Positions 25,605-32,154 of a stretch of DNA of 32,154 bases are shown here, piece by piece. Source of the stretch: Methanosarcinales archaeon (lineage in GTDB: Archaea; Halobacteriota; Methanosarcinia; Methanosarcinales; Methanogasteraceae). Location of the stretch: assembly GCA_030604085.1 (NCBI GenBank), contig JAUVWP010000008.1:1-32154 (forward strand). Direction: 5' to 3'. A program made the translations under genes and the position numbers. The notes beneath the pieces were generated by a model. It did not search any database and had not been told where the DNA came from. It saw only the letters and a program-made list of their open reading frames with translations. Positions within the stretch are counted from its first letter, which is position 1, and each line of letters begins with the position of its first letter.

Positions 25605-26192
25605 ATGAAAGCAGGTGAAGCGATGAAAACATTGAGAATATCGCGCAGCACACTCCAGCGATATGCTACGGATGGTTTGATCGGTAGAACTAAAATAGGG
25701 CGATATTTTGATTACCATGAGGAAGACATATTTAATTTGTTAAACAACGGTGTTAAACGGAAGACTTACATTTATTCGAGGGTTTCAACATATAAACAAA
25801 AAAAAGATCTTCAGAATCAGACAGAAATGTTAAAAAACTTTGCGTTTAACGTTGGCTATCAAATTAACGGGGTTTATTCAGACATTGCATCCGGTATATC
25901 TTTCGAGAAAAGAAAGCAATTTTTCGAGTTATTGGATGAGATCATGGAACATAAAGTGGAACGGGTTATAATTGCATATAAGGATCGTTTAAGCCGCGTG
26001 GGTTTTGATCTGTTTTATTATTTCTTCAAACAGTTTGGCACGGAGATAACAGTTGTTTCGGAAGTAGGCAATCACAAACTTGATTCAGAAGAGATATTTG
26101 AGGAGATAGTGTCTTTGCTCCATTGTTTCAGTATGAAACTTTATACCAAGCGGAATAAAACGAAGATAGAGGTAGCTTTAAATGAAAGTTAA
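25605..26192 (+). CDS. tnpA: IS607 serine recombinase TnpA
   Basis: The 195-residue product has an N-terminal MerR-like helix-turn-helix (SRSTLQRYATDGLIGRTKIG, about residues 13-32). The catalytic resolvase domain follows, with nucleophile Ser61 in YSRVSTYKQKKDLQNQ and the arginine-bearing motif YKDRLSRVGFDLF. All hallmarks of an active IS607 recombinase are present and the length is normal. The gene looks AT-rich relative to flanking core genes. The tnpB start lies 11 bases inside its 3' end. Confidence 0.95.
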   Translation: MKAGEAMKTLRISRSTLQRYATDGLIGRTKIGRYFDYHEEDIFNLLNNGVKRKTYIYSRVSTYKQKKDLQNQTEMLKNFAFNVGYQINGVYSDIASGISFEKRKQFFELLDEIMEHKVERVIIAYKDRLSRVGFDLFYYFFKQFGTEITVVSEVGNHKLDSEEIFEEIVSLLHCFSMKLYTKRNKTKIEVALNES

Positions 26193-27405
26193 GCGCACAG
26201 AACAGATTTGGCTACCACCAAGCGATAATTTAAGCTACATCTGCCATCTGTCCAAAAACCTCTTTAATGAAGGGAATTACATCGTCAAACAGGAGCTTAT
26301 ACAGAACGGTAAGTGGACTCGTTTCAACACCCTAAATTATCAACTTAACAAAGGGGTTAGCGATAACTACACGCTTTTACCATCCCAAACAGCAAACCGA
26401 ATACTTTACACGCTTGATAAATCATGGAAAGCGTTTTTTATTGCGATCAAGGATTGGAAAGTCAACCCGAAAAAATACAAAGAAAAACCGGAGCCGCCAC
26501 ATTACAAAAAGAAGGATGGCGAGCACATACTCATATTTACCACTCAACAGGTAAAAATAAAGGATAGTTATCTGTTATTTCCAAAAATGGCAGGTATCGA
26601 TCCAATAAAAACCAGATTAGGAGATGATACAAAGCTAAAAGAAGTTAGAATAATCCCAAAAGGGATGGGGTATGTTTGCGAGATAGTCCATGAAATAATC
26701 GTGGAATCTCTCAACCTGAACCCTGGTAACGTTGCAGGAATTGATTTAGGAGTACGTAACATCGTAACTATGGCAAATAACATCGGAGAGCGACCGATTG
26801 TTATTAAGGGCAGTTTCGTAAAATCTATGAATCAATACTACAATAAGAAGCGTGCTGAACTGAAAAGTACCTACGATCTTCAAGGAATTAAGAATGGAAT
26901 CCGATTGCGCAGGCTGCATGACAAAAGAAACCGTAAGATGAAGGATGCCATGCATAAACTCAGTAGATTCATCATTGACTGGTGCATCCGGCACGACATC
27001 GGGATTCTTGTAATCGGTCATAACGACAACTGGAAACAAAAGGTTAATCTCGGAAAAAAGAATAACCAGAACTTCGTTTCAATCCCTTACTACATCCTGA
27101 TCCATGATCTAAATTACAAAGGTGGAGAGGTCGGGATTAAGATAATAGAGCAGGAAGAGTCGCACACCTCTAAATGCAGTTTCCTTGATGATGAATCAAT
27201 CGAGCACCATGAGAAATACGCGGGTAAGCGGATCAAACGCGGTATTTTCAGGTCAGCGAAGGGAATACTGATAAATTCCGACGTACAGGGCGCATTAAAC
27301 ATAATCAAAAAAGCAATCCCGAAAGCGTTCTCGAAAGAGAATGCGGACGAGATAGAGGATGTAAGGCTACATCCATTGCGATGCACATTTGGAGGTATCA
27401 CATGA
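26182..27405 (+). CDS. tnpB: TnpB, RNA-guided RuvC nuclease of the IS607 element
   Basis: The 407-residue product has an N-terminal OrfB-type helical region, RuvC-I Asp188 in AGIDLGVRNIVTMA and RuvC-III Asp367 in INSDVQGALNI. The RuvC-II stretch reads ILVIGHNDNWKQ and lacks the usual Glu. The zinc finger is degenerate: SKCSFLDDE and FRSAKG in place of CxxC pairs. Acidic residues occur instead at IIEQEESHTS (about 321-330). This pattern resembles a known TnpB subgroup, so the protein may still be active with a shifted catalytic Glu. TnpB uses an omega RNA from the element's right end to guide DNA cleavage. Full-length and apparently intact. Confidence 0.93.
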   Translation: MKVKRTEQIWLPPSDNLSYICHLSKNLFNEGNYIVKQELIQNGKWTRFNTLNYQLNKGVSDNYTLLPSQTANRILYTLDKSWKAFFIAIKDWKVNPKKYKEKPEPPHYKKKDGEHILIFTTQQVKIKDSYLLFPKMAGIDPIKTRLGDDTKLKEVRIIPKGMGYVCEIVHEIIVESLNLNPGNVAGIDLGVRNIVTMANNIGERPIVIKGSFVKSMNQYYNKKRAELKSTYDLQGIKNGIRLRRLHDKRNRKMKDAMHKLSRFIIDWCIRHDIGILVIGHNDNWKQKVNLGKKNNQNFVSIPYYILIHDLNYKGGEVGIKIIEQEESHTSKCSFLDDESIEHHEKYAGKRIKRGIFRSAKGILINSDVQGALNIIKKAIPKAFSKENADEIEDVRLHPLRCTFGGIT

Positions 27406-29088: not shown

Positions 29089-29173
29089 AAACCACAGAGG
29101 ACACGGAGGACACAGAGTGTTGTTATTTTTCCCTTTTGCCGCCTCTGTGTCCCTCTGTGCTCTCCGTGGTTTT
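29089..29173. repeat. Imperfect inverted repeat (accacagagg...cctctgtgt type)
   Basis: The arm aaccacagaggacacggagg (continuing to 29117) pairs with 29142-29173, which reads ctctgtgtccctctgtgctc followed by tccgtggtttt, with few mismatches and a short T-rich centre. Similar sequences occur as dispersed stem-loop repeats in many prokaryotic genomes. It fills part of the 308-bp gap 29012-29319; the rest of that gap holds only a TATA-like tttata (29273-29278) before the next gene. Confidence 0.8.
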
Positions 29174-29319
29174 CCAAAACCTTATTCCGAAAATATCAAA
29201 AAGTCTCACGGGTTTTAGTCACTGCAACGCGAGATACCCAAGACCTGATCTTTCGCGGTTTGCGGTGTGACGTTTATAGCCGTTGAAACCGAACAACTCT
29301 TCTGAAGTTCAGACCGACC

Positions 29320-30035: not shown

Positions 30036-30398
30036 TTATTCATCTTTTTCTGCGCTAACGTACATTTCCATGTCGCCACGAGAATATACTTGTTCTAAAA
30101 TTCCCTGTAAAGCTTCAGCGAGTTTTTTGGCAGCCACATAAAACATATATATCCGAGTTCCATCGAGGAGAACTTTATCGTCTTTCTTGATGCCGGGCAT
30201 TTGAAGGAAGTCTATATACACATCTCTATGGGTAGCTTGAATATATGCAAGATTTGAGTAGTGAACTGCAGATATATCTGGTACAATATCTTCCGGATCG
30301 AATCGGTAAATTTCTCCTAAATCGATTAAAACTGATTTTGCTTCTTCGTCTGAAGCTCTTTCTTCTTCCAGTAAATCCTTTTCTTTTTCAGTAGTCAT
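30036..30398 (-). CDS. DUF3467-like protein
   Basis: The 120-residue product has an acidic N-terminus of about 40 residues. A domain resembling DUF3467 follows: HYSNLAYIQATHRDVYIDFL, then GTRIYMFYVAAKKLAEALQG. The family is small and its function is not established. The ATG at 30398 follows the stop of the winged-helix gene by five bases, so the two form an operon; the frame also opens at a TTG (30407). The final residues are charged (SAEKDE). Confidence 0.65.
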   Translation of the reverse strand: MTTEKEKDLLEEERASDEEAKSVLIDLGEIYRFDPEDIVPDISAVHYSNLAYIQATHRDVYIDFLQMPGIKKDDKVLLDGTRIYMFYVAAKKLAEALQGILEQVYSRGDMEMYVSAEKDE

Positions 30399-30403
30399 AA
30401 AAA

Positions 30404-30922
30404 TCAAGCCTGCCCTGAAGCTAGTATAACATTTTCTCCATATTGTTGTCCTTCACCTGCGAAGAATTTATCAGTCCAAATTCTGCCGTTGCATTCATAT
30501 TGAACCATAGTGGCAACAGCTAATGGCTGTACTTTTTGCCTTATCACTTTCATGTAGTAATCCAAAATAGCATTATCCATACATTCCGTTCCATCCCTAT
30601 CATCTATTGAAGCATATGACAGAAATGTTAATGCAATAATTTTTTTTGCTTTCAAATTTAAACGATAAACAGGATGTTGCATATCGCTTATGTCTTTTTC
30701 AAGTAACCCGAGATTTGTAAGATTGGCAAGAGCTTTTCTAACGGTTGGTGCTCTAGCTCCAGTCATCTCTTCAAAATATTTGGGTCGATAGTCGCGATAG
30801 GGGTCAGCTACAACCTCTTCAATGATCTTTGTCTGTACATTATCCCCAAAAAGTCCACCGTAGGGTTTGTCGAGATACATCTCAAATTCCCTTGGTAACT
30901 CTGGTAAGTGTTCTTCTGCCAT
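30404..30922 (-). CDS. Winged-helix DNA-binding protein (transcription regulator-like)
   Basis: Residues 35-95 of this 172-residue product look like a winged helix: YFEEMTGARAPTVRKALANL would hold the recognition helix, then LGLLEKDISDMQHPVYRLN the wing. A second part (about 100-172, CMDNAILDYYMKVIRQKVQP) may dimerise or bind a ligand. It is followed by the DUF3467-like gene and preceded, on the same strand, by a truncated gene cut by the IS481-like element. This set looks AT-rich and accessory. I cannot name the regulon. Confidence 0.65.
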   Translation of the reverse strand: MAEEHLPELPREFEMYLDKPYGGLFGDNVQTKIIEEVVADPYRDYRPKYFEEMTGARAPTVRKALANLTNLGLLEKDISDMQHPVYRLNLKAKKIIALTFLSYASIDDRDGTECMDNAILDYYMKVIRQKVQPLAVATMVQYECNGRIWTDKFFAGEGQQYGENVILASGQA

Positions 30923-30950
30923 GTTAATTCATTCATAGCATCTTCTCTTA

Positions 30951-31103
30951 TTAAACCTTTGTCTTATTTTCTGTAACAGAAAATATTTTTTCCAATTGCT
31001 TTTTATGTCTATGATGGGGAACTTCAAGATCATAGTGCGATATCCATTGGGATGCCCACGCCTGATTTTCTAATTTAACTACTTTTTCTCCTTTATATCG
31101 ATA
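30951..31103 (-). pseudogene. 3' stump of a gene cut by the IS481-like element
   Basis: On the minus strand an open frame of 50 codons runs from the left end of the insertion sequence (31103) to a TAA at 30951-30953. The encoded residues look like real protein (VVKLENQAWASQWISHYDLE, then VPHHRHKKQLEKIFSV), rich in His and aromatic residues. There is no start codon in the host part, so the 5' portion was probably separated by the insertion and would lie beyond 32154. It was apparently the first gene of the winged-helix/DUF3467 group. The family is not identified. Confidence 0.6.
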
Positions 31104-32154
31104 TGTATAGTCCCGAAACCTTTGACTTTATATACCCATCTTCTTCCGCATGGGACGACGAAATAAAGTCATAAAATTAACAGAAAAGAAAATAAGGTAT
31201 ATAATTCGGGCGAAGACCAAAAATGACAGTACTAAAAACATTGCGCAGGACATGAAATTAAGTGAATCCACTGTTAAGAGAGTCTGGATGCACTGGATAA
31301 AGCACCATGAGCCGATACCGATTAAAAAATTTGGCCGGAAGAAGAAAGAAATAGATGAAGGCTCGGAGGAGCTAATACTCAAGGTGCATGAAGAGCAAAA
31401 ATTGGGCGCGAGAAGGCTGGAGAAAATAATCGAGTTCAAGTACGGGAAGCACATTCCGCATAACCGCATCCATCAAGTTCTTTTGAAAAATGGGCTTGCA
31501 CAGGAGAATAAGAATAAAAAGAAACGTCGAAAAGACTGGATCCGGTACGAACGGAAGCATAGCCTGACCGCCATCCATTTAGACTGGCATACGAGTAAGA
31601 TCAACAGAAAAGAAGTGTCAGTGGCTTTGGATGACAGCTCACGATACATTCTGGCAGGCGATGAATTTGCTGCGGCTACTGGTGAAAACAGCATCGGTAT
31701 TGTGGCGGCTGTGCTGAATGAGTATGGCGGGATCCGAAAGATAGAACAGGTAATAACCGATAGGGGAAGCCAATATTATGCGAATAAGAAAGACAAACAT
31801 GGCGAGAGTGAAAGCAAGTTTGAAGCATTCCTGAAGGGGCACGGCATAAAGCACATCAAAGCAAGGGTTAAACATCCGCAGACTAACGGAAAGGTCGAAA
31901 AATGGCACGACCTGTACGAAAAACAACGAATAAAATTCAAGAGTTTTGCAGATTTTGTAAAGTGGTACAATACAGTACGATACCATGAAAGCCTGGATAC
32001 AAAACATTATCTTCAGACACCGGAAGATGCATTCTGGTCAAGACTTCCGGATGGGTGTAAGCTGAACGTCTTCCTCAAGCGGATGGGGGCAGGATTGTGA
32101 GAAAAATTGGAAAGTGGGGGGAGTATATAAAGTCAAAACATTTGGGACTATACA
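31104..32154 (+). mobile_element. Complete IS481-like insertion sequence
   Basis: Terminal inverted repeats begin TGTATAGTCCC at 31104 and end GGGACTATACA at 32154, the last base of the window. Over 32 bp the ends match at 28 positions, including the shared TTTGACTTTATATAC block, which contains a TATA box and may drive the transposase gene. Length is 1051 bp with one transposase gene. The target duplication cannot be seen because the right flank is outside the window. Confidence 0.9.
31150..32100 (+). CDS. DDE transposase (IS481/IS3-like rve integrase core)
   Basis: The 316-residue product has an N-terminal helix-turn-helix (DSTKNIAQDMKLSESTVKRV, about 26-45), a second helical domain, and an integrase core. 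The catalytic triad is visible as D145 (AIHLDWHTSK), D204 (VITDRGSQYY) and E250 (HPQTNGKVEKWH). It is complete, with no frameshift, so the element may be active. The start at 31150 is 15 bp after the left inverted repeat. Confidence 0.93.
   Translation: MGRRNKVIKLTEKKIRYIIRAKTKNDSTKNIAQDMKLSESTVKRVWMHWIKHHEPIPIKKFGRKKKEIDEGSEELILKVHEEQKLGARRLEKIIEFKYGKHIPHNRIHQVLLKNGLAQENKNKKKRRKDWIRYERKHSLTAIHLDWHTSKINRKEVSVALDDSSRYILAGDEFAAATGENSIGIVAAVLNEYGGIRKIEQVITDRGSQYYANKKDKHGESESKFEAFLKGHGIKHIKARVKHPQTNGKVEKWHDLYEKQRIKFKSFADFVKWYNTVRYHESLDTKHYLQTPEDAFWSRLPDGCKLNVFLKRMGAGL

Follow-up and report, generated by a model that had tools for sequence, protein, structure and literature searches.

Insertion elements of the IS481 family give rise to target duplications of 2 to 15 bp, and duplications of 15 bp are recorded for the archaeal elements ISMac4 and ISA0963-1, according to PMC10045372. 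IS481-like elements are a common kind, and the insertion described here is, as an event, ordinary. With the IS481 family, the element under study shares ends of the TGT...ACA type, a single transposase gene and a length of about 1 kb. It lies at the right-hand border of the window, i.e. the whole stretch of 32,154 nucleotides that was analysed, which comprises the entire contig C64 of a Methanosarcinales archaeon (genome G000; assembly of 2.0 Mb in 181 contigs) and whose position 32154 is the last base of that contig.

The element is complete and occupies 1051 bp of the plus strand (31104-32154), its outer right base coinciding with the contig end. It is bounded by terminal inverted repeats of 32 bp (31104-31135 and 32123-32154), which match at 28 of 32 positions and confer the ends TGTATAG...CTATACA. 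Between these repeats, an uninterrupted transposase gene (31150-32100, plus strand) encodes 316 amino acids with a weak match to the Pfam integrase-core family rve (E 4.7e-7; 30.4 bits, just below the cut-off of 32.6), in which D145, D204 and E250 are candidate catalytic residues assigned from motif positions. Among the insertion-sequence models listed, the NCBIfam IS481 model scored best (154.6 bits, compared with 44.8 for IS3, 37.8 for IS630 and 30.2 for IS21), but this score lies below the curated cut-off of 224, and the element is therefore termed IS481-like. An earlier reading from the sequence only had called it complete and IS481-like, a description borne out by its two ends, the open transposase frame and the rank of the IS481 model. 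Moreover, full-length copies are present in related genomes, being 98% (G003), 92% (G009) and 90% (G022) identical. The best plasmid match of the transposase is annotated as 'IS481 family transposase' and stems from Halalkalicoccus jeotgali (29.7% identity over 75%), and the matches in all 250 plasmid records that gave one remain below 60% identity. A literature search on insertion sequences and transposases of ANME-2c and ANME-2 found no paper.

We favour, with a probability of roughly 0.88, the explanation that this complete IS481-like element inserted into the gene that heads a cluster of three and thereby separated codons 1-77 from a stump of codons 78-127. On the minus strand, the stump (30951-31103) comprises the C-terminal 50 codons, open from 30954 to 31103 and thus as far as the left inverted repeat's outermost base, plus the stop codon at 30951-30953; together these correspond to residues 78-127 of the homologue in G009. 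The frame continues for eight codons into the element, yielding 58 codons from stop to stop (30951-31127), and the list of open reading frames of at least 40 amino acids contains no version of it that begins with ATG, GTG or TTG. Hence, the claim that a start-less frame of 50 codons abuts the left inverted repeat at 31104 was confirmed on the minus strand, and its protein-like appearance, likewise noted at that stage, is explained by its homology, in three other genomes, to a gene's C-terminal end. In a search of 60 genomes, the 50 residues of the stump were found to be 98% identical in G002 (E 3.2e-30), 92% in G009 (E 9.0e-29) and 72% in G058 (E 5.4e-20); altogether 14 genomes matched at E <= 1: besides the window's own genome and these three, ten others gave values no better than E 0.0158. 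The matching segment of G009 and of G058 forms the end of one open gene, which encodes 127 and 124 amino acids, respectively, from its ATG. In G002, G009 and G058 alike, the small gene is located directly upstream of the same winged-helix-like gene, which is followed by a DUF3467 gene. The shortness of the stump and the lack of a start that would give at least 40 amino acids would also suit an open frame arisen by chance or an independent small gene that the element terminates; this reading is refuted by the terminal part of a longer gene, to which the stump is homologous in three of the 60 genomes besides the window's own (E 5.4e-20 or better), and by a profile search, which recovered the small gene in 11 genomes, counting that of the window, out of 237 in the class.

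Comparison of the insertion site points to the same event. The window and its relatives align through position 31103, and where the element starts in the window the coding DNA of the relatives runs on uninterrupted, which places the cut after residue 77 and before residue 78 of the 127 amino acids encoded in G009. The whole homologues and the element-free site in relatives thus uphold the earlier proposal that the insertion disrupted the first gene of the winged-helix/DUF3467 operon. A scan of viral contigs with a pattern joining the element end and the site gave no match. With respect to the 50 codons of the stump, 11 synonymous and 4 amino-acid-changing differences separate it from G009, none and one from G002, and 11 and 14 from G058. 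The stump accordingly looks, as judged from these codon differences, like the end of a gene that selection maintained until recently, and the insertion seems young.

The nearest relative, G002, which belongs to the same genus, carries the small gene split into two frames with no insertion (L012:2197-2470), on a contig with a stated coverage of 886. Joining the flanks of the element might thus not restore an intact gene, since the same gene is in two frames there even where no element is present. This observation raises the possibility that the gene was already dead before the insertion, through a frameshift or partial loss in a common ancestor with G002, and that the element hit a pseudogene, a sequence of events that would be compatible with the insertion itself. 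The high coverage makes a random read error unlikely in G002, and three further genomes retain of the small gene no more than a recognisable front half. On the other hand, the stump is free of stops and frameshifts, its differences from G009 are predominantly synonymous as if it had been selected until recently, and the shift of G002 sits in the part that is absent from the window. On balance, we regard prior death of the gene as somewhat unlikely.

If the element did jump into an open small winged-helix gene of this cluster, codons 1-77 would have ended up outside contig C64. The assembly of the window's genome yielded no 5' part of the gene, neither when searched with the full-length G009 protein, which returned the stump only, nor when searched at the DNA level with the corresponding stretch of G002. 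In G002, the small gene is preceded by a divergent gene that we take, by reading of its sequence, to be radA-like. The G002 stretch from the stump to this gene matches two places in the window's genome, namely the 49 bases that immediately precede the element and contig C107 from its first base onwards. The radA-like gene is recovered as C107:1-896 with 96% identity to G002, and the first bases of C107 match the DNA upstream of that gene. Since C107 starts at a point equivalent to position 2622 of L012, and the insertion falls after position 2197, about 424 bp are absent from the assembly.

One might suppose that an adjacent deletion removed these roughly 424 bp, i.e. the 5' part together with the intergenic DNA that separates it from the radA-like gene, leaving nothing to be rejoined. 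In that case, however, an element abutting C107 should have left element bases at the end of this contig, as is the case for C70, C7 and C134, but none are present there, and a dropped short contig accounts for the missing DNA more simply, rendering such a deletion very unlikely. Contigs that end in part of a repeated element typically indicate that the assembly broke at a repeat. Right ends of the element were found five times in the genome, four of them identical over 31 bases (C64, C70, C7 and C134) and the fifth belonging to a diverged partial copy (C123), whereas the search recovered only one left end, so that no left flank is available for the remaining copies either. On both C70 and C7, the portion of the element at the contig end consists of precisely its final 127 bases, a length that likely represents the word size of the assembler. 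The missing piece would thus be a contig of roughly 0.7 kb, including overlaps of 127 bases on each side, a size often dropped by length filters. Under the insertion reading, the 5' part would still be in the cell, within some 0.4 kb that the assembly would have lost, and the order stump, element, 5' part, radA-like gene is our best guess. Rejoining through the right flanks of C70, C7 and C134 was tried over 900 bases in six frames, and none of them continues the stump; the flank of C70 resembles, by reading, the end of an ATPase gene, and those of C7 and C134 are unrelated. The left flank of the window is not duplicated at the start of any of these three flanks, and searches for the left flanks belonging to C70 and C7, which used the initial 15 bases on the right side, returned only C70 and C7 themselves.

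Target duplication was surveyed in seven copies from relatives for which both flanks are available, i.e. four from G018, two from G022 (one of them shortened) and one from G009, the G018 copies being related elements that have mainly their ends in common with that of the window. One G022 copy is flanked by a direct repeat agreeing in 14 of 15 bases, a score reached by none of about 2000 random flank pairs, and this copy therein resembles ISMac4 and ISA0963-1 with their 15-bp duplications as given in PMC10045372, whereas the flanks of the other six copies are no more repetitive than random pairs. Hence, a missing duplication at the window's site would not refute an insertion, because only one of the seven surveyed copies shows one and duplication lengths within the family vary from 2 to 15 bp. 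The shortened copy of G022 (contig C4; L104:926-1250) measures 325 bp and has lost internal sequence with both ends retained; its flanks, GGCTGTG and CACAGCC, are inverted rather than direct copies of each other.

With regard to the product of the cut gene, the intact G009 protein matched nothing in Pfam, NCBIfam or PADLOC, nor did it match plasmids, and eight family members yielded nothing credible in Pfam or NCBIfam; matches of single members in these two libraries (E 0.013 to 0.069), as well as profile matches to chains of angiotensin-converting enzyme (E 0.02), were judged to be chance. The eight members have in common an invariant F, W, K and G in a stretch resembling F-x2-W-x2-K-x-G, followed by W-A-x2-W and H-H. 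A structure model of the G009 protein, built from an alignment of four rows, reached block-mean pLDDT values of 85-92 over residues 31-100 and a whole mean of 71.7, with five versions ranging from 72 down to 36. Its elements follow the order H-E-H-H-E-E-H, which is that of winged-helix proteins. In VIA-align, the model aligned best with chain 2co5_B, the F93 protein of STIV (Z 9.0, rmsd 3.3 over 80 residues), and with 6o8o_C, SqrR (Z 8.7, rmsd 3.4 over 88 residues), followed by MarR-type chains with Z of about 8. Z values near 8 are common among small folds, and these alignments therefore support the fold but not a function. The predicted fold thus aligns to winged-helix chains such as F93 of STIV and folds of the SmtB/ArsR, MarR, TubR and AspA types, but the G009 protein is only 9-10% identical to them, and a Foldseek search of the model gave no match at E 0.001 or better, the best being 0.024. 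Taken together, the model suggests that the cut gene probably encodes a small DNA-binding winged-helix protein. The cut between residues 77 and 78 would lie inside a predicted strand (75-80), so that the element is predicted to interrupt the first strand of the putative wing. The part lost from a winged-helix protein in this way comprises the helices with which such proteins read DNA. The product of the gene would presumably be lost, since the stump possesses neither a start nor the DNA-reading helices. Pattern-based scans for relatives of the small gene in viral contigs found none.

The two remaining genes of the cluster are open. The second gene (30404-30922, minus strand) encodes a winged-helix-like protein of 172 amino acids that is 97% identical in G002; it gave only weak helix-turn-helix matches (Pfam DUF2250 and HTH_IclR, below cut-off) and weak matches in a defence library (best E 0.002), and its structure model is poor (mean pLDDT 52). 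The third gene (30036-30398, minus strand, with the first ATG taken as the start) passes the Pfam gathering score for DUF3467 (PF11950; E 3.9e-9; 36.9 bits, cut-off 25). The small protein, the DUF3467 protein and the transposase all had no match in the defence library (PADLOC), and a literature search on DUF3467 retrieved nothing relevant to the cluster.

The transposase gene runs against the operon and thus cannot drive it, but the element might supply a promoter of its own. The motif GTATATAAAG, which resembles an archaeal TATA box, occurs twice in the window, once in each terminal repeat and in both cases directed outward: at 31135-31126 in the minus-strand reading of the left repeat, pointing at the operon, and at 32123-32132 in the right repeat. 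Shuffled sequences would be expected to contain 0.02 occurrences; the two copies count as one event, since the terminal repeats are copies of each other. Read as a TATA box, the left motif would put the start of transcription at roughly the element border, 181 bases before the second gene. The two downstream genes may hence be read from this promoter-like site.

Within the class, the second gene adjoins the small gene at all 11 places where the latter was found. The second gene itself is present in 16 of the 237 genomes at 17 places, 16 of which allowed the upstream region to be assessed, since at G190:C77 the contig ends too soon. Upstream of it, the small gene is whole at 8 of the 16 places as one open frame of 115-139 codons (G009, G058, G093, G096, G190:C5, G211, G216 and G220), the profile match in G096, G211 and G220 having run over one stop that was read as the end of the frame itself. 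At 5 of the 16 places the small gene is damaged, being cut by the element in the window, frameshifted in G002 and recognisable by its front half alone in G214, G217 and G221. At the remaining three (G202, G203 and G207) no small gene was found upstream; the stretches of G202 and G207 are identical, so that these two may count as one. G214, G217 and G221 belong to one genus and may reflect a single event or a natural short form; in these genomes (L090, L091 and L094) the second gene is open downstream of the front-half gene. In the wider phylum, 392 genomes were sampled, and 22 of them, among these the window's own, contained the family; 18 lie outside the class, and the second gene adjoins the small gene in all seven of these 18 that were opened.

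Damage to the small gene in at least three ways, with the larger partner staying open, fits a dispensable partner but is no proof of selection for loss. Going further, the two genes might represent an unnamed, widespread archaeal winged-helix pair whose small member is repeatedly lost and whose large member is kept, the former acting as a possible modifier or counter-partner, the loss of which may be tolerated or indeed favoured, and the outward TATA-like site of the element might replace the operon promoter; we advance this scenario tentatively and consider it unlikely as a whole. The pair is likely unstudied, given that it carries no name in the family libraries searched, and the literature was searched for DUF3467 and for ANME insertion elements. 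It constitutes a candidate regulatory module, and this by-product is more useful than the insertion itself: an archaeal family devoid of credible Pfam or NCBIfam matches, with the same winged-helix-like partner at every place examined and with several kinds of damage. In addition, the case is an example of a gene hidden by the break of an assembly at a repeated element, its front half being absent from the draft genome.

Two further observations concern the neighbourhood of the cluster. A TnpB-like gene (26182-27405; Pfam OrfB_IS605, E 4.2e-22) is located directly upstream of uvrC and represents a second kind of mobile element nearby. Between uvrC and a methyltransferase gene lies a stretch with inverted repeats (29090-29177; ACCACAGAGGACACGGAGG ... 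CCGTGGT), which was spotted by eye and which, as translations suggest, is also present in G002.
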